Below, one piece after another: positions 3,954-47,750 of a DNA stretch of 64,000 nt; the first letter of the stretch is position 1; every line of letters begins with the position of its first letter. The DNA is taken from NCBI GenBank assembly GCA_032139905.1, contig JAQJDB010000007.1:558001-622000 (forward strand). Direction: 5' to 3'. Source of the DNA: Nitrospira sp. MA-1 (lineage in GTDB: Bacteria; Nitrospirota; Nitrospiria; Nitrospirales; UBA8639). Below the pieces are notes generated by a model that saw only the letters and a program-made list of their open reading frames with translations, was not told the DNA's origin and did not search any database. The position numbers and the translations under genes are program-made.

Positions 3954-4276
3954 GAGGATTAAATTGATTGGGCTAGAGACGTTTCTTGGAGGAGCGTCTT
4001 GAATGGAGAAGGAGCGGGCCATTCCTCCTGAGGGAAATGGCTGCCCCGTTCCTTAATTGCCGTTTTTGAATTATCGGCAGTCTTTCTGATTCTTCTGCTT
4101 GGTCCTTCAAAGCTCAGAGCTAAGCCGAACATTCTTCAGTGTTTCCCTCCAGATCTGCTTGCCCCCCGATTTTTCCGCCATTGTCAATTCCCAATTCGAT
4201 CAGCCCATGGGAGTTAACCAGTACTAAAATTGAGAATGCGATAAAGCAAGTGACCTTTTCTAGAGAGGTGGAGGCA
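3954..4276. other. Intergenic region
   Basis: About 320 bases between the Pal-like gene and the cupin gene. An imperfect hairpin around 4017-4041 (GGCCATT pairing with AATGGC) could end the Pal transcript, but it lacks a good T tract. I see no gene. Confidence 0.35.
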
Positions 4277-4603
4277 ATGGAATTATGTCAAAATCTGTTT
4301 GCCAATATTCCTGAACACCTTAATCACGAATTGACGAGTGAGGTATTGAGGAGTCGTTCTGTACGAATTGAACGGATAGTGTCACGGGGCCAGGCGTCTC
4401 CACCAGACTTTTGGTATGACCAGGCCGAGCATGAATGTGTTGTGGTACTGGCAGGAAAAGCCACACTCAAAATTGAGGGACAACCTGAACGGGTGCTTTG
4501 TCCTGGGGATACGGTTTATCTTTCCGCGCATACCAGACATCGTGTGGAATGGACCGATCCCAAACAAAATACGATCTGGCTTGCAGTGTATTGGAAGGAC
4601 TGA
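4277..4603 (+). CDS. Small cupin-domain protein
   Basis: A 108-residue single-domain cupin. The frame is open from 4139, but the ATG at 4277 is preferred because AGAGGTGG lies just upstream and homology-like sequence begins there. Cupin motif 1 is seen as EHECVVVLAGKATLKIEG and motif 2 as PGDTVYLSAHTRHRVEW, with His and Glu residues suited to bind a metal. Members of this small cupin group are usually of unknown substrate. It stands alone on the plus strand. Function beyond the fold cannot be inferred. Confidence 0.75.
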   Translation: MELCQNLFANIPEHLNHELTSEVLRSRSVRIERIVSRGQASPPDFWYDQAEHECVVVLAGKATLKIEGQPERVLCPGDTVYLSAHTRHRVEWTDPKQNTIWLAVYWKD

Positions 4604-4709
4604 GCTTTTGCCGTGGTGCAAGCTTAATCCCGTGGTATACGTTCTTCTGTATGGATTTCACTGCGCAACGTGCTCATGAGTCGGTGGCCCGGAAAACGGG
4701 CGAGAATAT

Positions 4710-4856
4710 TTAGTTGAATGCAAGAATAATAAAAGGGGAGATGAGCCAGAATGTTCCTTTGACCAAGAAAAAGACCACTCCATACCATCCAAACTTTTTT
4801 ATCCAGGTAGGTTCCTGTACAGGATTCTGGAATATCCCGGTTCTCAATGTGCGCAT
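4710..4856 (-). CDS. Small single-pass membrane protein
   Basis: A 48-residue protein. It has a short soluble head containing NPVQEPTWIKKFGWYG, then a hydrophobic stretch VVFFLVKGTFWLISPFIILA. The ATG at 4856 is chosen over the longer frame because AAGGA lies 8 bases upstream on the minus strand. The N-terminal pattern resembles small conserved membrane proteins of unknown function. It lies downstream of the broken methyltransferase gene on the same strand and may once have been co-transcribed with it. Confidence 0.5.
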   Translation of the reverse strand: MRTLRTGIFQNPVQEPTWIKKFGWYGVVFFLVKGTFWLISPFIILAFN

Positions 4857-4938
4857 GGTTGTTTTCCTTTCCCCGGGAAATAAATGAAGCACGCCGCTAC
4901 GTGGATATTTCAGGCAGCGGATTGTGTCATTTTGGCCT

Positions 4939-5713
4939 TCAAGTAGCCATAGTCCTTGGGGCTTGTGGTTTTCCCATGAAGCTCCCTATGAATAGTCGTG
5001 GAATAAGTTTGGGTACTCGTTCTTGATAATCTTTATACGCCTCTCCATGGAAAGCCACCAAATCCTTCTCTTCCCATTGAATGGCCATCAGGATATAGAT
5101 GGTAGTCGTCACCGAAAAGACCAGATGGGCAACCGTTATCGTGGGAGTGGCCCAGAATGCCAAGAGCCAACCGACATAGAGAGGATGCCGTACCTGCCGA
5201 TACAGGGCCGGGGTCCTGAACGGTAATGGTGTGTACTCTTGTTTTTGCAGATAGAGCCAGACCTGCCGCATACCGAACTAATCAAAATGATTGATGAGGA
5301 ATGTGGCCATGAGAATTAATCCCCAACCCGCCGCAAACATGCCATACAGCAGGCCCTGCCCGACTGGGTCTTGAATGTGCCAAATCCAGTCTCCCATGGG
5401 TTGCCAGGCATAAAACAAGAGAGCCAGTGCAATGTTGGTACAGAGCACATAGGTGCTACGTTCAATGGGTTTGGGAATATATTGTGTCCACCATTGTTTA
5501 AAGGTCTGCCGGGCCATGACGCTATGCTGGACCGCAAAAATTCCCAACAGAAACGAATTGAGGGGCCAGAGCCTGCCAAACTGGAACCCCGGGTTGGCCA
5601 TCAATGGTATTGGAGACGCCAAAATTTCCAAGAAAGCCTAAGGCATTTAAAAAGATGCCTAGGAAAGATAGGTAGCACAGGGTGCCATAGATAAAAAACA
5701 CCAGACGTTGCAT
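4939..5713 (-). pseudogene. mddA: Broken methanethiol S-methyltransferase (MddA-like)
   Basis: Three minus-strand pieces together make one integral-membrane methyltransferase of about 258 residues. MddA makes dimethyl sulfide from methanethiol and S-adenosylmethionine. Piece one (from 5713) begins MQRLVFFIYGTLCYLSF. Piece two holds GIFAVQHSVMAR and IERSTYVL. Piece three holds LPFRTPALYRQVRHPLYVGW. The first break is a +1 shift at a run of four G at 5562-5565 (plus strand); removing one base restores ALNSFLLGIFAVQHS. The second is an in-frame amber codon at 5278-5280, at the position after INHFD where relatives carry Leu. Two separate lesions make a sequencing error an unlikely full explanation. 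The MddA assignment rests on remembered family motifs. Confidence 0.75.
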
Positions 5714-5793
5714 GATCGTAGCTCCTTTTTGATTCGGACGTTTAAGGGCCGACTGCCTCAGGTTGGGCCTGAGGCAATCAGTTATGTCTGTCC

Positions 5794-6363
5794 TCAGTTG
5801 GTCCCTTTTGTATCTACCGAAATGGCCACCGGCACGGGATTGGATACAATGTCGAAAACCGGTGAATACTTCGTCAATTCCCGAATTGTCTCGGCTGGCG
5901 CATTACTTTTCACGGTGAAGTGTACCCGGAGGTTTTGATAGCCCGGGCGAACGTCTTTGGACAGCCCCAGAAACCCGCGAAGATCCAAATCCCCCTCTAG
6001 GCGGGATTCCACTGAATCAATTTTGATGCCACGGGCGGCCGCATGATAGACCATCGACGTGGTTAAGCAGGGCGCCAGGGCATGCAACACAAACTCCACC
6101 GGGTTGGCTCCCTGATCCTCTCCTAACAAGACGGGCGGTTCATCGGCATCAAGCACAAATGGCTCGGTTCGGGTTGTATCTTCTTTGCCCACTCCGTAAA
6201 ACTCCTTGATCGTGGTGCGATTGTGCCCCCCATTGACCCAGTTGTTGGTGGCCCGGAACTGAAATTTGGCCAAACCGGGTTCGCCTTGAATGGCATGGAT
6301 ATTGGCCCCTAATTGTTCGACGTTGACCCCATTGATGGTTGATGTTGTGGCGACAGATGACAT
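5794..6363 (-). CDS. OsmC family protein
   Basis: A 189-residue OsmC/YhfA-like protein, a family that includes thiol-dependent peroxidases acting on organic hydroperoxides. ATG at 6363 is chosen because AGGAGG lies about 7 bases upstream; an in-frame extension to 6495 lacks this. The helix with the reactive cysteine is seen as NPVEFVLHALAPCLTTSMVY. The usual second cysteine is not evident: the C-terminal part reads SPVFDIVSNPVPVAI. A sigma-54 promoter and activator-like palindromes lie upstream, and a sigma-54 activator gene follows beyond those. The gene precedes the broken mddA-like gene on the same strand. Confidence 0.85.
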   Translation of the reverse strand: MSSVATTSTINGVNVEQLGANIHAIQGEPGLAKFQFRATNNWVNGGHNRTTIKEFYGVGKEDTTRTEPFVLDADEPPVLLGEDQGANPVEFVLHALAPCLTTSMVYHAAARGIKIDSVESRLEGDLDLRGFLGLSKDVRPGYQNLRVHFTVKSNAPAETIRELTKYSPVFDIVSNPVPVAISVDTKGTN

Positions 6364-39453: not shown

Positions 39454-39569
39454 TCTGAGGGTTATTCAGAATACTCAATGTTCATGGTCCTCGACAGGTA
39501 AGCGGTTTGTTGTAGTTCAATCAGGGGCGTGCCATCCATCTCTGCAACACCTTTAAAGGGGAAATTCCT

Positions 39570-40097
39570 ATGAGATCGACACGACTCAACCTCTTTTCTA
39601 TCATGATCGCCGTGGTATTTTCGCTTTGTGCATCACTGGTGTTTGCTGGAGGAGCGACGGCAAAAACCGGATTCTCACAAGCCCAGGAATCGGCCAGGAA
39701 ATGGCAGGCGGACGTGGTTCTGGTCCAAATCATCACCGTATCAGGAGATATGGAGGGCACGTCGAGGAAGTGGAGCTATCTCTTTTATTCACCTCAGGCA
39801 AAAAAGGGGTACAAGGTGGACGTGAAGGATAGCAAGATTGATCAAGCGATTGAAGTGCCGTCGAGCTTTACGGATGCGGTGGATGGAGATTTTATTGATA
39901 GTGCGCAGGCAATCACAGAAGGGAAAAAGAAAGGGCTCAAGGGGAAAAATCGAGCGATGATGACCCTCCACATCATGCAGCAAGGCACCAAAAGCCAGGG
40001 CGCCTATTGGAATATCGTCAGTGACCAGGCGGAAGGAAGAAGCACGCTCATCAACGCCAAGACCGGGAAATTCTTCAGGCACCAGGCACTCAAGTAG
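39570..40097 (+). CDS. Exported protein of unknown function
   Basis: A 175-residue protein with a signal peptide (residues 8-30, cleavage near VFAGGA). The mature protein is lysine-rich and contains a repeated pattern of small beta units (WSYLFYSPQAKKGYKVDVKD and AYWNIVSDQAEGRSTLINAK) that resembles PepSY-like periplasmic folds. I do not recognise a named family. It sits between the kinase gene and the toxin-antitoxin module, with its own start site. Confidence 0.7.
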   Translation: MRSTRLNLFSIMIAVVFSLCASLVFAGGATAKTGFSQAQESARKWQADVVLVQIITVSGDMEGTSRKWSYLFYSPQAKKGYKVDVKDSKIDQAIEVPSSFTDAVDGDFIDSAQAITEGKKKGLKGKNRAMMTLHIMQQGTKSQGAYWNIVSDQAEGRSTLINAKTGKFFRHQALK

Positions 40098-40268
40098 ATG
40101 GTGCCTGGCGTCAGTATCTATCCTCTGTCAATGTGTATTCCTCCCTACAGGCAGTCGTGTCTTATTGCGTCAGGGCCCATTTCTGGCACGTGGAGCAGTT
40201 CTGCCTTCCTGACAGCTCTGTAAGTTCAGATTTCTCCGATTGACTTCCCGTTTCATGAAAAGTACCAT

Positions 40269-40285
40269 TTGTACAATTCGTACGA
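40269..40285. promoter_or_regulatory. Tandem palindromic operator of the toxin-antitoxin module
   Basis: Two perfect 8-base palindromes, TTGTACAA and TCGTACGA, separated by a single T, lie 36 bases before the antitoxin start. YefM-type antitoxins are known to bind palindromes with a TGTACA core, which the first contains exactly. Confidence 0.65.
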
Positions 40286-40321
40286 TACGTTCATTCGAGA
40301 GGAAGGGAAAAGAGGTAGTTT

Positions 40322-40576
40322 ATGGCACATTTACCATCCAGCAAAGCACGAGAAGGATTTGCGGATACGATCAATCGTGTGGCATACGGCAACGAGCGCG
40401 TGGTGTTGCGCCGGCGCGGGAAAGAAGTCGCAGCCGTCGTCCCGATTGCCGACCTGCGATTGTTGGAAGAGTTGGAAGATCGAATGGACCTTGTCGACGC
40501 CAGAGCCGCCTTGGCTGAAACTAAGAAGAAAGGCGCGAAGTCCCTTGATGGGATTCTGAAGGAACTGGGTCTCTAA
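40322..40576 (+). CDS. Phd/YefM-family antitoxin
   Basis: An 84-residue antitoxin. The N-terminal half carries the family pattern SKAREGFADTINRVAYGNER then VVLRRRGKEVAAVVPIADLR, which folds as the Phd/YefM DNA-binding domain. The C-terminal half (LEDRMDLVDARAAL onward) would wrap the toxin. Neighbouring palindromes fit autoregulation. The toxin gene follows after 9 bases. The pair is a type II toxin-antitoxin module. Confidence 0.88.
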   Translation: MAHLPSSKAREGFADTINRVAYGNERVVLRRRGKEVAAVVPIADLRLLEELEDRMDLVDARAALAETKKKGAKSLDGILKELGL

Positions 40577-40585
40577 CCCCTTCCG

Positions 40586-40846
40586 ATGGCCTATTCGATT
40601 CTCCTCGCCCCTCCTGCGGAAAGGCAGCTCAAGGCCTTTTCCCAAGCAGTTCAAAAGCGTCTGATTAAACGTCTCAAGACGCTGCAGGTCAACCCCCGTC
40701 CACAGGGCGTCAAGAAGCTGTCTGGTGAAGATGACCTGTACCGTGTTCGGGAGGGAAGCTATCGCATCATTTATACAATCCGCGAAAAGGCACTTATTGT
40801 CCTTGTTCTCAAGATCGGCGATAGAAAAGAAGTCTACCGCCCTTGA
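40586..40846 (+). CDS. RelE/ParE-superfamily toxin
   Basis: An 86-residue toxin, probably a ribosome-dependent mRNA interferase. Motifs PPAERQLKAFSQAVQKRL, NPRPQGVKKL and YRVREGSYRIIYTI match the RelE fold, with the conserved basic and aromatic residues (Arg in YRVREG, Tyr in RIIYTI) and terminal VYRP. It is 9 bases after the antitoxin gene, so the two are co-transcribed. Confidence 0.88.
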   Translation: MAYSILLAPPAERQLKAFSQAVQKRLIKRLKTLQVNPRPQGVKKLSGEDDLYRVREGSYRIIYTIREKALIVLVLKIGDRKEVYRP

Positions 40847-40927
40847 TCCTTGGCCATCATTTGGGAGGCGGTTGGTTGTTAGAGTATATGACCAGACTGA
40901 GGGTGGGTGCTTGCGGGTGCAGTGGTT

Positions 40928-41104
40928 ATGGAGCCTGAATATGAAATGGTTCAGCCTAATGGACGAATTCGCTGGTGGGGTCAATTGAAGAAGCCGGTGG
41001 AAAGGCCGCCCAGGGTTATCCTGTTAGCCGATAGGGAAACGGGTCGTAACGCGTTTTTTGATGGATCCTATCGGAGACCGAATGAAGGTAAAATATTTTT
41101 CTGA
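40928..41104 (+). CDS. Small conserved protein preceding DUF2283
   Basis: 58 residues: an acidic start, then RIRWWGQLKKPVERPPRVIL and RETGRNAFFDGSYRRP. This pattern resembles small proteins that are often paired with DUF2283 genes, though I cannot name the family. ATG at 40928 gives the likely product. Its end overlaps the next gene by 23 bases in another frame, so the two are coupled. Together they may form a toxin-antitoxin-like pair; that is inference. Confidence 0.5.
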   Translation: MEPEYEMVQPNGRIRWWGQLKKPVERPPRVILLADRETGRNAFFDGSYRRPNEGKIFF

Positions 41105-41285
41105 CACGGACACCGCCTATATCGAATTTAGTAATCAAGATGTGGTGGAGACTAAAGATATTAATGAAAACATCCTGATTGACCTTGATGAAAATGGCCA
41201 GCTTGTTGGGATGACCATTGAACATGCCGATGTTCAAGCAAACCTTTCTGAAATTTCATTCCAACAACTGACCCCAAAAGGCTAA
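41082..41285 (+). CDS. DUF2283 family protein
   Basis: 67 residues with the family pattern MKVKYFSDTDTAYIEFSN, ILIDLDENGQLVGMTIEHA. DUF2283 proteins are small and often lie in toxin-antitoxin-like pairs. ATG at 41082 is preferred because the family starts at this Met-Lys-Val; the frame extends to 41058. It overlaps the preceding small gene. Confidence 0.8.
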   Translation: MKVKYFSDTDTAYIEFSNQDVVETKDINENILIDLDENGQLVGMTIEHADVQANLSEISFQQLTPKG

Positions 41286-41369
41286 TGCACCAATCCTTTT
41301 CCCCCAGCGATGAGAGCTGATGTACACACCTTTCCAGCATATCCCTAGTAATTCTTTACCCCACTCTGT

Positions 41370-41446
41370 CATACCCGACATTGTTAATCGGGAATCCATC
41401 TTCTCCGCTCTTGTCATTCCTGCGGGCCGTTGGCAGGAATCTATTT
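41370..41446. repeat. Two 32-base palindromic repeats
   Basis: Units at 41370-41401 and 41415-41446. Each starts GTCAT and contains an inverted repeat (CCCGA with TCGGG; ATTCCTGC with GCAGGAAT), ending ATCCAT or ATCTAT. The same 32-base family recurs at 60279-60399. It lies upstream of the reverse transcriptase locus. Confidence 0.8.
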
Positions 41447-41589
41447 TACCTTGATATATTTCGTCGATTGACGGAGAATTGGCCGCGACTGTTGGTAAGT
41501 AGTTTTTCGAATGCGACAGGAGAAAGGGTTCGTGGATAGAAAAACGAAATTCCACATCTTGGGCGGATTAGGCTAATTAATGTTATGTG

Positions 41590-41775
41590 TGAAAATTCGA
41601 AAGCAAAGTGATAGGATAAAAATTACTTTCCCAGGGAAAGAACGGACACCCTATAGATCGTTCCATGAACGAACTCCTGGGGGAAAAGCGTCAAAACTTT
41701 TTCAACCAAATGGCAACTTACTTTTACGTGGTTGTGTCCGTGGAAGGCCCGGTCTTTTGATCGGGCCTTCTGTAT
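41590..41775 (+). ncRNA. Candidate non-coding RNA of the reverse transcriptase locus
   Basis: About 185 bases directly before the reverse transcriptase gene hold no reading frame but dense structure. A perfect hairpin with stem CTTTCC lies at 41626-41640. A long-range stem, ACGGACAC (41642-41649) with GTGTCCGT (41734-41741), closes a domain of about 84 bases. Inside it a small hairpin, CGTTC-CAT-GAACG, spans 41659-41671. A terminator hairpin at 41743-41770 ends it. Retrons and several defence-associated reverse transcriptases carry a template or structural RNA in this position. The 5' end is not known. Confidence 0.6.
41743..41770 (+). terminator. Intrinsic terminator between ncRNA and reverse transcriptase gene
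   Basis: A 12-pair stem (GAAGGCCCGGTC with GATCGGGCCTTC, one G-T pair) with a TTTT loop, followed by TGTATTTT. It lies only 17 bases before the start codon, so most upstream transcripts would stop here and some would read through. Confidence 0.85.
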
Positions 41776-41787
41776 TTTGGAGAAAGA

Positions 41788-43284
41788 ATGTATTTAGAAG
41801 ACTACCTCAGAAAAATAATTGATGAAGAATCAGATAAGCTGATTCTTCGATATCATGCATATCATAATGCCCTTCATAATGAGTATCTTCGAAACAAAAA
41901 AAGGATTTCGGATCCTCCCAAAAAGACCATAAAAAGGCCTGATTACTGGCAGGAAGATAAAAAGTTTAATCCTTTTTATGTCAAAAGAAAAAGTAAAAGC
42001 ATAGCTTGCTCAATTGCTAAAAAAATATCAGAGCAGACTTACGAGCCATACCCCCCACATACAAAGGAGATTCCAAAGCCGGGTGGAGGTCTAAGGTCAA
42101 TCGCCGTTTACCAGATACCTGATGCCGCAGTATCAAGAATTTTTTACAACCGTCTATTGGCTAAAAACAAACATAGGTTTAGTTCATTTTCTTATGCCTA
42201 TAGGAATGATCGAAACGTTCATTTCGCTATTCAGGATATTTGGCTAGATATATCGAGAGACGCAAGATCATTTATCGCAGAGTTTGATTTTTCTGATTTT
42301 TTTGGATCAATTTCTCATGATTATTTGATGGCCCAATATGATGAGAACGGTTTTTTTATTAGTGACGAAGAAAGGCATGTGATCAATTCTTTCCTAAAGG
42401 GTAGAACGAGAGGGATTCCTCAAGGTACGTCGATCTCATTGTTCTTAGCCAACCTCGTATGTTGGAGGCTAGATCTAGGGCTTGAAAGAGAGGGTCTAAA
42501 ATTTGCCCGGTATGCAGACGACACTGTGATTTGGAGTCCCGATTATCAAAGGATTTGCAAAGCCTTTACAATTATTAACGAGTTCTCTTCATTAGCCGGC
42601 ATACCGATTAACGCTAAAAAATCAGATGGAATAAACCTATTAACAAAGGAAGATTTACCTACAGAACTCAAGAGCACCAAAACAAAGCTTGATTTTCTAG
42701 GTTATTCAATATCCGTGACCGCAGTATCTATAAAAGATGCATCATTGAAGAAGATCAAAAAGCAAATCTCATATTTGCTCTATAGAAATCTCATACAACC
42801 CTTACGAGGTAGTGAGCTGAAGGGTATGATAATCCCTGCGAATGATAAAGATGCAGCTTTGCTTACAGCTATAATGCAGATTAGGCGCTATTTGTATGGT
42901 GGGCTGACCGGTCAACAGCTAAGAAATTACTTAAGTGGCAGAACTAAAAGAATCTATTTTAAAGGGATTCTTAGTTTTTACCCATTGGTCAATGATGAAG
43001 AACAATTGAAAGCCTTGGATGGATGGCTTGTGTCTGTCATCTGCCGCTCTTTAAAACTACGATTGAAGTTGTTGAAGAAATGGAAATTTGATCGCTCTGG
43101 CATTTTCCCCTTTAACTTGCCGTGCTCTGAAATCCCCGAAAGATTTAAAGCCAAAAGAATATATGGGAAATCTTTGTTGGAAATCCCCAGTTTTATGCTA
43201 ATCCAGCGTGCAATGCAAAAGGGGCTTAAGCATCGTGGGATAGAGAGTGTGATGCATCCAGATTCAGTGGATTATGACTACTGA
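41788..43284 (+). CDS. Reverse transcriptase, retron/DRT (unknown-group) like
   Basis: A 498-residue RNA-directed DNA polymerase. Motif order is intact: RT1 region PKPGGGLRSIAVYQIPDAAV, motif A EFDFSDFFGSISH (catalytic Asp about 167), motif B GIPQGTSISLFLANL (QG about 212), motif C RYADDTVIW (YADD 242-245), motif D GIPINAKKSDG and motif E LDFLGYSIS. About 190 more residues follow, with no maturase or HNH motif, so it is not a group II intron protein. The DGR signature is absent. The gene is clearly A+T-rich compared with its neighbours, suggesting transfer. GGAG precedes the ATG. A structured RNA and terminator lie upstream. The exact subclass is not known to me. Confidence 0.85.
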   Translation: MYLEDYLRKIIDEESDKLILRYHAYHNALHNEYLRNKKRISDPPKKTIKRPDYWQEDKKFNPFYVKRKSKSIACSIAKKISEQTYEPYPPHTKEIPKPGGGLRSIAVYQIPDAAVSRIFYNRLLAKNKHRFSSFSYAYRNDRNVHFAIQDIWLDISRDARSFIAEFDFSDFFGSISHDYLMAQYDENGFFISDEERHVINSFLKGRTRGIPQGTSISLFLANLVCWRLDLGLEREGLKFARYADDTVIWSPDYQRICKAFTIINEFSSLAGIPINAKKSDGINLLTKEDLPTELKSTKTKLDFLGYSISVTAVSIKDASLKKIKKQISYLLYRNLIQPLRGSELKGMIIPANDKDAALLTAIMQIRRYLYGGLTGQQLRNYLSGRTKRIYFKGILSFYPLVNDEEQLKALDGWLVSVICRSLKLRLKLLKKWKFDRSGIFPFNLPCSEIPERFKAKRIYGKSLLEIPSFMLIQRAMQKGLKHRGIESVMHPDSVDYDY

Positions 43285-43615
43285 GCTTCATAGCAATTGC
43301 TTTTACCTGGGGAAAATGTAGGTACGTCCGTTCCTCGCTCTGCCACAATAGGTCACCGATTATCCGAAGCCATAACCAGAGGGGCGACCCCTTAAATTTC
43401 TTACACAGTCTATTTTCCCAGGATAGGGGGCGGCGGCCATTATCCTCGGCTCGTGCACGACCGTTACAACCATATCGCAATCGCGACAAGGGAGCCTTAC
43501 AAGAAAAAGTTGGCCGGAATGTTTATCCTGGTTTGGGGGGTAGGTCTTACAATATCACATCAAGGGATTTCTGTGCCCACGGCCGCGATCCTTTCTGAGT
43601 CTTTATGTTTCAAGT
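43285..43615. other. Intergenic region after the reverse transcriptase gene
   Basis: About 330 bases between the reverse transcriptase stop and the HigA-like gene. A frame at 43453-43680 runs into the HigA gene on the other strand and is not supported. I see no second effector gene for the reverse transcriptase here. Confidence 0.45.
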
Positions 43616-43909
43616 CTAACGTTTCGTGGTCATGGCGAAACGGAATCCGCACGCATACAAAAGTGCATCGAGACTTTTGAATTCCGGATTTCCCCGTCCA
43701 GAGAGGATCTTATACAGGTTTTCACGATTAAGTTTGGACTTCTCGGCGAGTTGTGCCACGCCCCCTTGAGCTTTGGCTACATTGCTTAGCGCCAATAAAA
43801 ACAATTCAGGATCGTCTTCCTCCAGTGCTGCGTTCAAATTTTCTTCGACTTCACCCGCATCATGTAGGCATGCAATTAGGTCTGGTTGATAGGCGTTACT
43901 TTTGTTCAT
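43616..43909 (-). CDS. HigA-like antitoxin (XRE-family, orphan)
   Basis: A 97-residue antitoxin of the type that pairs with HigB/RelE-like toxins. ATG at 43909 follows GAGGAG. The N-terminal part (LIACLHDAGEVEENLNAAL) and the helix-turn-helix (GGVAQLAEKSKLNRENLYKI) plus SGRGNPEFKSLDALLYACG match the family. A toxin gene normally lies directly upstream, but the 95 bases before the next gene cannot encode one, so its partner is missing. It may be a degenerate module or act on a distant toxin. Confidence 0.8.
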   Translation of the reverse strand: MNKSNAYQPDLIACLHDAGEVEENLNAALEEDDPELFLLALSNVAKAQGGVAQLAEKSKLNRENLYKILSGRGNPEFKSLDALLYACGFRFAMTTKR

Positions 43910-43987
43910 GGTCTCCTCACTTTTCAGGAACTGCGAGTAAGGAAATCTCCCTGGGTCCTTCTTTTCCAATGTTGGGAAATTCTCTGT

Positions 43988-44017
43988 CGGCAGGCTCTCA
44001 AGCCTTAGAGCCTGCCG
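43988..44017 (-). terminator. Terminator of the DUF433/DUF5615 module
   Basis: A perfect 11-base stem, CGGCAGGCTCT with AGAGCCTGCCG, around an 8-base loop. It overlaps the last codons and stop of the toxin gene, and separates that module from the HigA gene. The T tract downstream is weak. Confidence 0.65.
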
Positions 44018-44346
44018 GATAATTCAACCAGAGGCTCACCGGATTTCAGAAGCGTCAGTAGAGTTGGGAATGTCCTTTGAAGAAGGGTGCAAAGGTAGGC
44101 GTTTGACGTGTTCCCACACGTAACCCAAATGATTTGCGGTGGGACGCCATGCACCATCACCAAATCCATAAAATCCTGATCTTTACTCATAATGGTGGCA
44201 CCGGCTTGTCGAGCGGATTGGAATATTTCCAGATCACTGGCATCTCTAAGGCCGAGAGAGGAGACGGATTGAGCGGGAATAGAAAAGGTAATAGTGAGCC
44301 AGGGTGCTAACTGAGGAGACAGTTGAGCGTCGATCCACAGAATCAA
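44005..44346 (-). CDS. DUF5615 PIN-like toxin
   Basis: 113 residues of the PIN-like DUF5615 family. The N-terminal motif ILWIDAQLSPQLAPWL has the first acidic residue of the PIN-like site. The second part has GLRDASDLEIFQSARQAGAT and MSKDQDFMDL, which supply the other acidic residues. It is predicted to be an RNase toxin. Its start overlaps the end of the DUF433 antitoxin gene by 4 bases (ATGA). Confidence 0.85.
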   Translation of the reverse strand: MILWIDAQLSPQLAPWLTITFSIPAQSVSSLGLRDASDLEIFQSARQAGATIMSKDQDFMDLVMVHGVPPQIIWVTCGNTSNAYLCTLLQRTFPTLLTLLKSGEPLVELSGRL

Positions 44347-44567
44347 GAGGTAACCATGGGATGGTTCACACGCGCACTGGCAAATTTAAGGCAGGCTTGA
44401 ATATCTTCCGCTTCTAAATCGGGCAATTCTTCTAGGACTTGTTGAGGGGTGAGCCCGTTCCCCAAGAGGGCCAGGACATCCGTCACACGAATCCGCATTC
44501 CCCGGATACAGGGACGGCCACCGCATTGGTCAACGTTCACAGTAATACGTTCTGCAATAGTAGCCAT
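44343..44567 (-). CDS. DUF433 antitoxin
   Basis: 74 residues of the DUF433 family: ITVNVDQCGGRPCIRGMRIR, then VTDVLALLGNGLTPQQVLEE and LPDLEAEDIQACLKFA, a helix-turn-helix-like antitoxin usually encoded just before a PIN-like DUF5615 toxin, as here. GGGAGG lies upstream of ATG 44567. The pair forms a type II toxin-antitoxin operon. Confidence 0.88.
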   Translation of the reverse strand: MATIAERITVNVDQCGGRPCIRGMRIRVTDVLALLGNGLTPQQVLEELPDLEAEDIQACLKFASARVNHPMVTS

Positions 44568-45068
44568 ATTTCTTCCCTCCCTGGGGATTATACCAGAGAG
44601 TAAATGAGGAGCAACCGAACAAATGTAGAGGAGAGCATTCAGGGGAAAATCGAAACTCTTCTCAAAAGGGAGGATTTGACTGCGGGAAAGATGGACTATA
44701 GTTATTCCAAATAATTTCCAAAGGCTTCTTCTCTTTGATCATGCCAGTAAAGCGGCCATTCCACATGGAATTCCCTGAGGACCTTAACCTTCCCATTGTC
44801 CGACGCCTGCCGCCCGGATCCATGGGCGGACGCTCTCATCACTTGGCGGGCATTGTTTGAGTGCAACGAGTTGGCCCGCCCTCCCCTGGGTTGCGTCCGT
44901 CCATTCGTGACCGGGCGGGGCGTCCATGGTTTTGGCTACTTTTGCCGAAACAAAAGTGGCTCGGCAGTCAGGACGAAACCAGGCATCTCTGATCATTCCA
45001 ATTAGGGGAATTGTGCCCCCGAGCAAAGCGGAAATTATATGGAAAGACTGTAGTTTCTGCCAGAGTTA
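44568..45068. repeat. Non-coding region holding a dispersed repeat-like element
   Basis: About 500 bases between the toxin-antitoxin operon and the P-type ATPase gene. From about 44790 to 45010 it resembles a widely dispersed intergenic element: conserved-looking GGCGTCCATGGTTTTGGCTA, then an inverted repeat ACTTTTG-CCGAAA-CAAAAGT, then CTCGGCAG. No gene is supported. Its identity as a repeat is recalled from other genomes, since only one copy is in this window. Confidence 0.4.
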
Positions 45069-47750
45069 TCAACCGCGACGCCTGACCCACTTTTCGAGTT
45101 CTACGGCGAAAAATACGACAGTTGACAGGAGGAGGCAGAGGGCTAATTGGTCCAGGGTTAAGGGTATGGTATGGAAGATGGGGTTGAGGAAGGGCATGTA
45201 TATCGTGGCCATCTGAAGGGCAAACGTGAGGAGGACGGCTCCAAATAACCAGAGATTGGTCAACGGTCCCCGCTGAAGAAATGATTCCTGTTCCGCACGA
45301 ATCGCCAACACATGGCCCATTTGTGAGAGGGTGAGGACGGTAAACACCATGGTTTGCCATTCTCCCTGATCGGCCTCGTAGGCCCACATTTCAGTAGCCA
45401 GCGACACACCACCCATGAGTAGTCCTACCCACAAGATATGTTGCCAGAGACCGCCGGCAAAGATGCTTTCATTCGGTGGGCGGGGCGGGCGTTCCATGAT
45501 GTTGCGTTCTTCGGGTTCCATGGCGAGGGCGAGGCCGGGCAGGCCGTCGGTGACGAGATTGATCCATAAGATCTGAATCGGAAGCAGGGGAATCGGCAGC
45601 CCGAATAACGGCGCCAGGAAAATTGTCCAAATTTCTCCGGAATTGCTTGTCATCGTATATTTCACAAATTTGCGGATGTTGTCATAGATCCGGCGTCCGT
45701 CCCGGACGGCGGTGACAATGGTCGCAAAGTTATCATCCAACAGAATCATGTCGGAGGCTTCCCGGGCCACGTCTGTGCCGGTTCGCCCCATCGCGATGCC
45801 GATGTTGGCCTGGTTCAAGGCGGGGGCGTCATTCACCCCGTCGCCAGTCATCGCGACGAACTCTCCCCTCGTTTGCAAAGCTTTGACGATGGCAATTTTT
45901 TGCGCGGGAGTGATGCGGGCATAGACGCGGGTGTGCTCAACAATTTGCTCCAGCTCTTCGGGGGAACGGTGTTCCAACTCCTGGCCGGTCAACACCGTGG
46001 TCTCCTTATTGATGATGCCGACCCGTGAGGCAATGGCCTTGGCGGTGCCTGGATGATCGCCGGTGATCATGACGGGTTTGATGCCCGCCGATCGACAGAG
46101 GGCGACCGCCTGCGCGGCTTCTTCCCGTGGAGGATCCATCATGCCGGCAAATCCCAGAAAAGTAAGCTGGCGTTCGACGACCGAAGGAGTTATTTCCGAA
46201 GGAGCTTGGTCCCAGTGGCGATAGGCCACTGCCAAGACCCTTAACCCTTCATTGGCCATGTGTTCGGCCTGCTCCAACAGTCTGTCTGTTGCCAGGGATT
46301 CAGGGCCAGGGCCGGTCTGTGTGAGCATGGATTCGCACAGAGGCAGAAGTTTTTCCGGCGATCCTTTGGTGAAGGAGAGGACTCCCTCTGGCGTGCGATG
46401 CAGGGTCGTCATGCATTGGCGGTCGGAGTCGAAGGGGAGTTCTTGTATGCGTGGGTTCGTGGCCTCCAATGTATCTTTGTCGTACCCGGCCTGGCTGGCT
46501 GCCAGATATAAGGCTATTTCCGTGGGATCGCCCAATGTCGGGCCTTCGGTCTGAGCCTTGGCATCGTTGTTCAATGCCAACGCCAGGAAAAACAGATCGA
46601 TGGGATTGTGGAGATCAACTTCAATGCCGGGTTGTTTACTGGTGGGCGGGGTCAGTATGTCCCCGGCCACAGACAGTTGCTCTACCCGCATGGAGTTTTG
46701 TGTGAGGGTGCCCGTCTTATCCGAACAGATATAGGTGACGGACCCTAATGTTTCCACAGCGGGCAGTCGCCGGATCAATGCCTGTTTTTTGGCCATTTTT
46801 CGCGCGCCCAATGCCAGAGAAATTGTGACGACGGCCGGGAGGGCTTCCGGAATGGCGGCCACGGCCAAACTGACGGCGGTCAGGAACATGAGCACCGGCG
46901 GCTCACCCCGCCAGACCCCAACGGCAAATAACACCACGCAGATGGCGAGGACGGCCAACGCGAGGCGTCGTCCAAAGACCGTCAGGCGTTGTTGTAAGGG
47001 CGTTTTAATGTCTTCGTCTTTATGCAGGAGAGAGGCAATCTGTCCTAACTCGGTCTGAAGGCCGGTGCCGATGACGATTCCCGTGCCCCGGCCATATGTC
47101 ATGAGTGTGCCTTTATAGGCCATATTCCGCCGATCACCCAGCGAAAGTTTCGGGTCGTTGAGGGGGTCCGTCTGTTTGTCAACCGGGACGCTCTCGCCTG
47201 TGAGCGTAGATTCATCCACTTTGAGTTGAACCGCTTCGACTAATCGAAGATCGGCAGGGATGAGATCTCCGGCTTCCAGTAGCACGATGTCACCTGGTAC
47301 CAGGTCGAGCGTGGAGAGCGGCACGATCTGCTCCTCACGTTGGACACGTGTCGCGGGAGTCGAGAGTTTTTTGATGGCTTGCATGGCTCGGTCCGCTCGA
47401 TATTCCTGCACAAATCCGATGATGCCGTTGAGCATCACAATGATAATAATCGCCAAGGCATCCATTCGCTGCCCCAACATGCCTGAGACGATGGCGGCCC
47501 CAAGGAGCACCAGGATCATGAAGTCGGAAAATTGATCGATGAAGATTCGAGAGAGACTCCGCTGCCGGTGTTCGGGAATCGTATTGTGTCCGTAACGACG
47601 AGTCCGGCGACGGACTTCCCGGGCATTCAGCCCTGTTTGCGGATCGACTCCCAGCCGTTGAGCCACGTCCGCGACAGGAAGAGTATGCCAGGCCGTATCG
47701 CTTGGCGATGGGGAAGGGGCCTCAGTGGTGGTGGTGGGTTCTTTGGTCAT
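45069..47750 (-). CDS. Ca2+-type cation-transporting P-type ATPase
   Basis: An 893-residue P2A-like ATPase. It has an N-terminal cation-ATPase domain, TGES motif (STLTGESVPVDKQ), phosphorylation site CSDKTGTLTQN, PEALPAVVT in helix 4, and the hinge motif MTGDGVNDAPAL. The helix 6 region has LWINLVTDGLPG, the Asn/Asp pair used for Ca2+ binding. It would pump Ca2+ or a similar cation outward. It stands alone, with a weak ribosome binding site at ATG 47750. Confidence 0.93.
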   Translation of the reverse strand: MTKEPTTTTEAPSPSPSDTAWHTLPVADVAQRLGVDPQTGLNAREVRRRTRRYGHNTIPEHRQRSLSRIFIDQFSDFMILVLLGAAIVSGMLGQRMDALAIIIIVMLNGIIGFVQEYRADRAMQAIKKLSTPATRVQREEQIVPLSTLDLVPGDIVLLEAGDLIPADLRLVEAVQLKVDESTLTGESVPVDKQTDPLNDPKLSLGDRRNMAYKGTLMTYGRGTGIVIGTGLQTELGQIASLLHKDEDIKTPLQQRLTVFGRRLALAVLAICVVLFAVGVWRGEPPVLMFLTAVSLAVAAIPEALPAVVTISLALGARKMAKKQALIRRLPAVETLGSVTYICSDKTGTLTQNSMRVEQLSVAGDILTPPTSKQPGIEVDLHNPIDLFFLALALNNDAKAQTEGPTLGDPTEIALYLAASQAGYDKDTLEATNPRIQELPFDSDRQCMTTLHRTPEGVLSFTKGSPEKLLPLCESMLTQTGPGPESLATDRLLEQAEHMANEGLRVLAVAYRHWDQAPSEITPSVVERQLTFLGFAGMMDPPREEAAQAVALCRSAGIKPVMITGDHPGTAKAIASRVGIINKETTVLTGQELEHRSPEELEQIVEHTRVYARITPAQKIAIVKALQTRGEFVAMTGDGVNDAPALNQANIGIAMGRTGTDVAREASDMILLDDNFATIVTAVRDGRRIYDNIRKFVKYTMTSNSGEIWTIFLAPLFGLPIPLLPIQILWINLVTDGLPGLALAMEPEERNIMERPPRPPNESIFAGGLWQHILWVGLLMGGVSLATEMWAYEADQGEWQTMVFTVLTLSQMGHVLAIRAEQESFLQRGPLTNLWLFGAVLLTFALQMATIYMPFLNPIFHTIPLTLDQLALCLLLSTVVFFAVELEKWVRRRG

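Follow-up and report, generated by a model that had tools for sequence, protein, structure and literature searches.

A putative DRT9 anti-phage system with a compact upstream RNA in Nitrospira sp. MA-1

The locus raises the question of which kind of reverse transcriptase (RT) system is formed by an RT gene and the structured non-coding RNA directly upstream of it in Nitrospira sp. MA-1. An earlier, sequence-only reading of the window (by which we mean the whole stretch of 64,000 nucleotides that was analysed) had proposed a retron- or DRT-like defence locus, possibly of a new subtype. Judged from its sequence, the locus is very probably a complete two-part DRT9 anti-phage system, in which a scaffold/template RNA of approximately 147 nt is followed by its RT. 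DRT9 was described and structurally solved in 2025 (PMC12483538, PMC12489045), and the present copy is an ordinary and apparently intact one, of which only the presence in this genome is new.

Classification of the reverse transcriptase

The RT open reading frame was found to be intact, and the YADD active site occupies residues 242–245, in agreement with the full-length RT claimed by the sequence-only reading. Classification with PADLOC, the type of HMM analysis suggested by that reading, identified the protein as Drt9 (E=1.7e-214, 711 bits; next-best model 106 bits), with the match spanning residues 4–496 of the RT and positions 2–487 of the 488-position profile. Furthermore, a phmmer comparison with solved structures matched residues 1–498 to PDB 9ioa/9nlv (5.8e-212), the solved DRT9 entries matched being 9ioa, 9iob, 9nlv, 9nlx and two more. 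Across 497 aligned residues, the RT shares 63% identity with the E. coli protein encoded at locus L012 (which agrees with the PDB DRT9 sequence at every place compared in the printed alignments), and its identity to other DRT9 RTs ranges from 57 to 79%. An assignment to DRT2 was rejected on scores and motifs, the Drt2 model reaching 77 bits, far under its cut-off, as against 711 bits for Drt9.

Published mutants identify Y25, K98, R104, R140, the YADD motif, Y496 and Y498 as required residues (PMC12489045; PMC12483538). Residue mapping revealed that Y25 of the N-terminal extension is kept, as are the lock residues (K98, R104 and R140, corresponding to K97, R103 and R139 in the window RT) and the C-terminal priming tyrosines Y496 and Y498, which are invariant among nine aligned RTs. 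The pocket pair R205/K208 of EcoDRT9, which takes in U67 of the RNA, is represented by K204/T207.

The possibility that the gene encodes the RT of a group II intron or a diversity-generating retroelement (DGR) is practically nil. A group II RT/maturase model does match the RT core, and the RT core only, at 129.9 bits, but its cut-off is 300; Pfam gives no maturase or endonuclease domain, and an Rfam search of the window returned zero matches, group II introns included. The full-length Drt9 match argues directly against both forms and would appear to leave no room for a DGR; the earlier statement that group II intron signatures are lacking holds. The lack of any Rfam match in the window indicates that Rfam does not cover the DRT9 RNA at gathering level.

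The upstream RNA and its family

The predicted RNA and its parts are listed in Table 1; its 5′ limit was placed from SL1 homology and from how far ahead of the U4 template the published RNA starts. Folding of positions 41625–41785 gave −61.7 kcal/mol, compared with −42.4 ± 4.3 kcal/mol in dinucleotide shuffles (z −4.5).

Table 1. Coordinates of the RT gene and of the predicted RNA elements in the window
Feature	Position	Strand	Description	Basis
DRT9 (UG28) reverse transcriptase	41788..43284	+	498 aa, ATG	PADLOC, phmmer, residue mapping
DRT9 non-coding RNA (predicted)	41626..41772	+	~147 nt; 5′ end at SL1, 3′ end at SL6 hairpin	
SL1 hairpin CTTTCC-CAG-GGAAAG	41626..41640	+		both-side changes in 5/6 pairs, 8 loci
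Closing stem, 5′ arm ACGGACAC	41642..41649	+		covariation count
Closing stem, 3′ arm GTGTCCGT	41734..41741	+		covariation count
Internal hairpin CGTTCCATGAACG, SL4 position	41659..41671	+		single-sequence fold
SL5 hairpin GAAAAG-CGTCAAAA-CTTTTTC	41683..41703	+	loop C41692	fold
G41712	41712..41712	+	U4 minus 10	place of G113 of SenDRT9
UUUU, putative template for poly-dA, context CUUACUUUUACG	41722..41725	+		position conserved; role from SenDRT9
SL6 terminator-like hairpin GAAGGCCCGGTC-TTTT-GATCGGGCCTTC	41743..41770	+	ends 17 bases before ATG	fold

The sequence-only reading had described a closing stem, two internal hairpins and an intrinsic terminator. The closing stem was recovered, and structured RNA is indeed present upstream of the gene, but it starts at about 41626 rather than 41590, and the listed hairpins lacked a further 5′ hairpin, SL1, which is part of the structure. 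Similarly, a hairpin lies at the distance claimed for the terminator, but its U-tail is weak (CTGTATTTTGG); SL6 is reported not to be needed for poly-dA synthesis (PMC12483538). In SenDRT9, U123–U126 were shown by experiment to be the poly-dA template, and C93 (SL5) and G113 (SL5.1) are kissing partners located 30 and 10 nt before U4, respectively (PMC12483538). In the window, C41692 in the SL5 loop is positioned 30 nt before U4, matching C93.

For comparison, DRT9 loci were gathered from Methylobacter (L009), E. coli (L012 and L013), a Hymenobacter plasmid (L010) and viral contigs (L019 and L020), together with loci L017, L038, L039, L042 and L043. Ten loci, the window included and the near-duplicate L013 excluded, have a readable RNA; outside this tally stand L039, whose upstream region is cut by a contig end, and the distant DRT9 loci L011 and L040 (about 32–33% identity), in which R1 (see below) had no match to the upstream RNA. 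UUUU occurs at the template position in all ten readable RNAs, in CUUACUUUUAC or near variants. A motif scan yielded 17 loci, 16 of which lack a DRT9 RT and were taken as chance. Phage records contained only distant RTs (<31% identity, none covering 80%); viral contigs yielded two DRT9 loci (L019 and L020).

A covariance model, R1, was built from six other DRT9 loci, with neither the window nor L009 among them. It matched positions 41640–41772 at 84.3 bits (E=1.8e-18), the sole match in the whole genome, and matched L009 at 1.2e-16; L043 (0.0085) and L020 (0.038) scored weakly, yet ranked directly after these two in that search, all of these E-values being rough owing to a shortened calibration. 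Pairing across eight loci was maintained in 93.8% of cells for SL1 and 98.4% for the closing stem, and changes on both sides were seen in nine of the 14 pairs of the two stems (four of eight in the closing stem). In total, 23 both-side cells were observed as against 7.5 ± 2.0 after shuffling that leaves relatedness among the loci in place, none of 500 shuffles reaching 23, and the signal disappeared when the partner was slid by one to three columns. Where SL3 is absent, SL1 ends up in the wrong place when whole RNAs are aligned with MAFFT, and for this reason the count was made on excised arms and R1 begins at the AACGG stem. Since stem motifs guided the placement of the arms and two difficult loci were omitted by choice (L043, with a broken RT gene, and L020, in which a one-base shift leaves the alignment ambiguous), the count leans somewhat towards structure; the R1 test is independent and free of this lean. 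A third helix in the pair count hardly varies and thus proves little as covariation evidence. The comparison of homologous loci that the sequence-only reading had suggested favours a conserved structured RNA: its stems covary, R1 recognises it, and the RNA, together with U4, is present in all ten readable loci, of which the window is one.

These results also bear on the retron-like reading, under which msDNA would be made from an msr-msd RNA whose a1/a2 repeat is the ACGGACAC/GTGTCCGT stem. The arrangement of an RT and, upstream, a structured RNA closed by an inverted repeat would suit a retron, and a weak match to the retron St85 model was obtained. However, this match (68.8 bits) is far under the cut-off of 235, Drt9 is ahead of every other model by 600 bits, the NAxxH and VTG motifs are absent from the RT, the protein ends in the conserved tyrosine pair and the RNA is a member of the DRT9 family, making a retron extremely improbable. 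The other half of the original proposal, a DRT-like defence locus with an upstream RNA, fits the locus as DRT9, one of the examples named at the time.

Three of the gathered loci showed features of their own. The RT of L039 is a DRT9 protein 57% identical to that of the window, and the U4 motif is absent from the 110 bases upstream of it (L039:1–110, G948:C6), where the contig begins. By eye, GTGAAACGAAAAATCAGT stands at what seems to be the corresponding position, where L020 has GTGAAACTTAATTTTACTT. Such an A-tract, if real, would be a template with poly-dT as its expected product, but as the contig starts at that point a contig break or an insertion is equally likely. No relative was found among 152 genomes of its family. 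In L043 (positions 1–2450), an insertion of some 870 bases, which by eye encodes an IS5-type transposase, interrupts the RT gene after approximately residue 304. L011 (positions 4001–6131), located on a plasmid of Thioclava, is a distant DRT9 with 33% identity and has a SLATT-domain gene directly 3′. A SLATT gene beside some DRT9 systems has been reported, and none was seen among the DRT9 neighbours in the window.

Genomic setting and probable origin

The locus is A+T-rich compared with its surroundings, as had been noted previously, with a GC content of 0.38 for the RT gene and 0.42 for the RNA as against 0.49–0.50 in the flanking DNA and 0.51 over the window as a whole. The toxin-antitoxin setting was likewise borne out by Pfam, the neighbours being a PhdYefM/ParE pair, a DUF2283 protein, a HI1420-type antidote and a DUF433/DUF5615 pair. 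A congeneric genome, L055, retains both the HI1420 gene and the flanking antitoxin-toxin pair but lacks 40920–43566; in the complete congeners L056 and L057 the flanks at 39.5–40.1 kb and 44.3/45.1–47.6 kb are conserved and DRT9 is absent. DRT9 is present in a single copy in this genome, was not found in any other of the 198 genomes sampled from the phylum, and has its nearest relative found in Methylobacter. The A+T-rich composition, the variable, toxin-antitoxin-rich spot and the absence from sampled relatives together suggest that the locus was probably acquired horizontally, in a toxin-antitoxin hot spot.

Between the conserved flanks (39500–45070), the toxin-antitoxin genes are shuffled, duplicated or absent in L055–L058, which gives this spot the appearance of a variable hot spot. 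Additionally, an intergenic stretch of approximately 190–300 bases within 44697–45003, mainly 44791–44985, is a dispersed repeat with many copies (72–82% identity) in this genome and in most sampled genomes of the genus.

Proposed mechanism and comparison with known systems

All parts of DRT9 are present and under constraint. By analogy with SenDRT9 and EcoDRT9 (PMC12483538, PMC12489045), the system likely responds to phage infection by synthesising poly-dA, with a protein primer and U4 as the template, and so brings about abortive infection. The RNA would fold onto the RT and aid its assembly into hexamers; upon infection, one or both C-terminal tyrosines would prime synthesis, and dATP would be polymerised through repeated copying of U4. 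The RT would become covalently joined to its product, poly-dA of kilobase length, which is expected to drive abortive infection, whereby the infected cell stops. Tang et al. tested ten DRT9 systems in E. coli and named two as defending against multiple phages, and the activity of any single homologue is thus not guaranteed.

The points counted against the assignment are the change in the U67 pocket, the missing SL3 and the weak U-tail. The window RNA is approximately 24 nt shorter than the Sen/Eco RNA, the distance from the closing stem to U4 being 80 nt as against 104–105 nt in the E. coli type. SL3 is also absent from L009, L042, L038 and L010 (79–81 nt from closing stem to U4), and in the alignment such SL3-less loci are gapped by 22 nt relative to the SL3-bearing ones. 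Disruption of SL3 has only a mild effect on SenDRT9, the sole stem of which this is true, and SL3 is reported to be nearly dispensable (PMC12483538); this mild effect indicates that SL3 is not defining for DRT9. Neither the loss of SL3 nor the K204/T207 pocket makes a new kind, and the suggestion of a new subtype is not supported, given the 57–79% identity of the RT to DRT9 RTs and the recognition of the RNA by a model built from other loci. The compact RNA occurs across distant bacteria (the window, Methylobacter and others), and the RNAs might be divided into an SL3-bearing (Sen/Eco) and a compact, SL3-less type; that the latter assembles or is triggered differently is a tentative and rather unlikely idea.

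It is very unlikely that the locus, although descended from a true DRT9, has become inactive, or altered in its product or trigger, in this host. The lost SL3, the changed pocket, the single copy in the genome and the insertion-broken relative L043 could be read in this manner. On the other hand, the open reading frame is intact, as are the catalytic residues, the priming tyrosines, the stems of the RNA and U4, and L009, L042, L038 and L010 combine SL3-less RNAs with RT matches of full or nearly full length. The preferred reading, a complete DRT9, adds an intact system that closely resembles characterised ones in sequence, in a group without another sampled carrier; the natural covariation supports the published RNA fold, and the compact RNA represents a small natural test of the stems needed for poly-dA synthesis.

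Compared with DRT9 of Salmonella enterica and Escherichia coli (PDB 9ioa, 9iob, 9nlv, 9nlx; PMC12483538, PMC12489045), the RT is 63% identical from end to end and shares the catalytic, lock and priming residues, and the upstream RNA likewise has SL1, the closing stem, SL4–SL6 and a template-enclosing stem, with U4 in CUUACUUUUAC and the kissing-loop C and G at equal distances from U4. The differences are the shorter, SL3-less RNA, the pocket pair and the bacterial host. The closest relative found, in Methylobacter sp. KS41 (L009, PHSP01000001.1), has an RT 79% identical to that of the window, a nearly equal RNA also devoid of SL3 and the same spacing of 45 bases between closing stem and ATG, while its closing stem is changed yet paired (ACGGATGC/GCGTCCGT). 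DRT2 (UG2), for which a common ancestor with DRT9 has been reported (PMC12489045), similarly consists of a lone RT and a structured upstream RNA; however, approximately 120 nt of the DRT2 RNA are copied into a repeated gene, whereas DRT9 copies U4 only.
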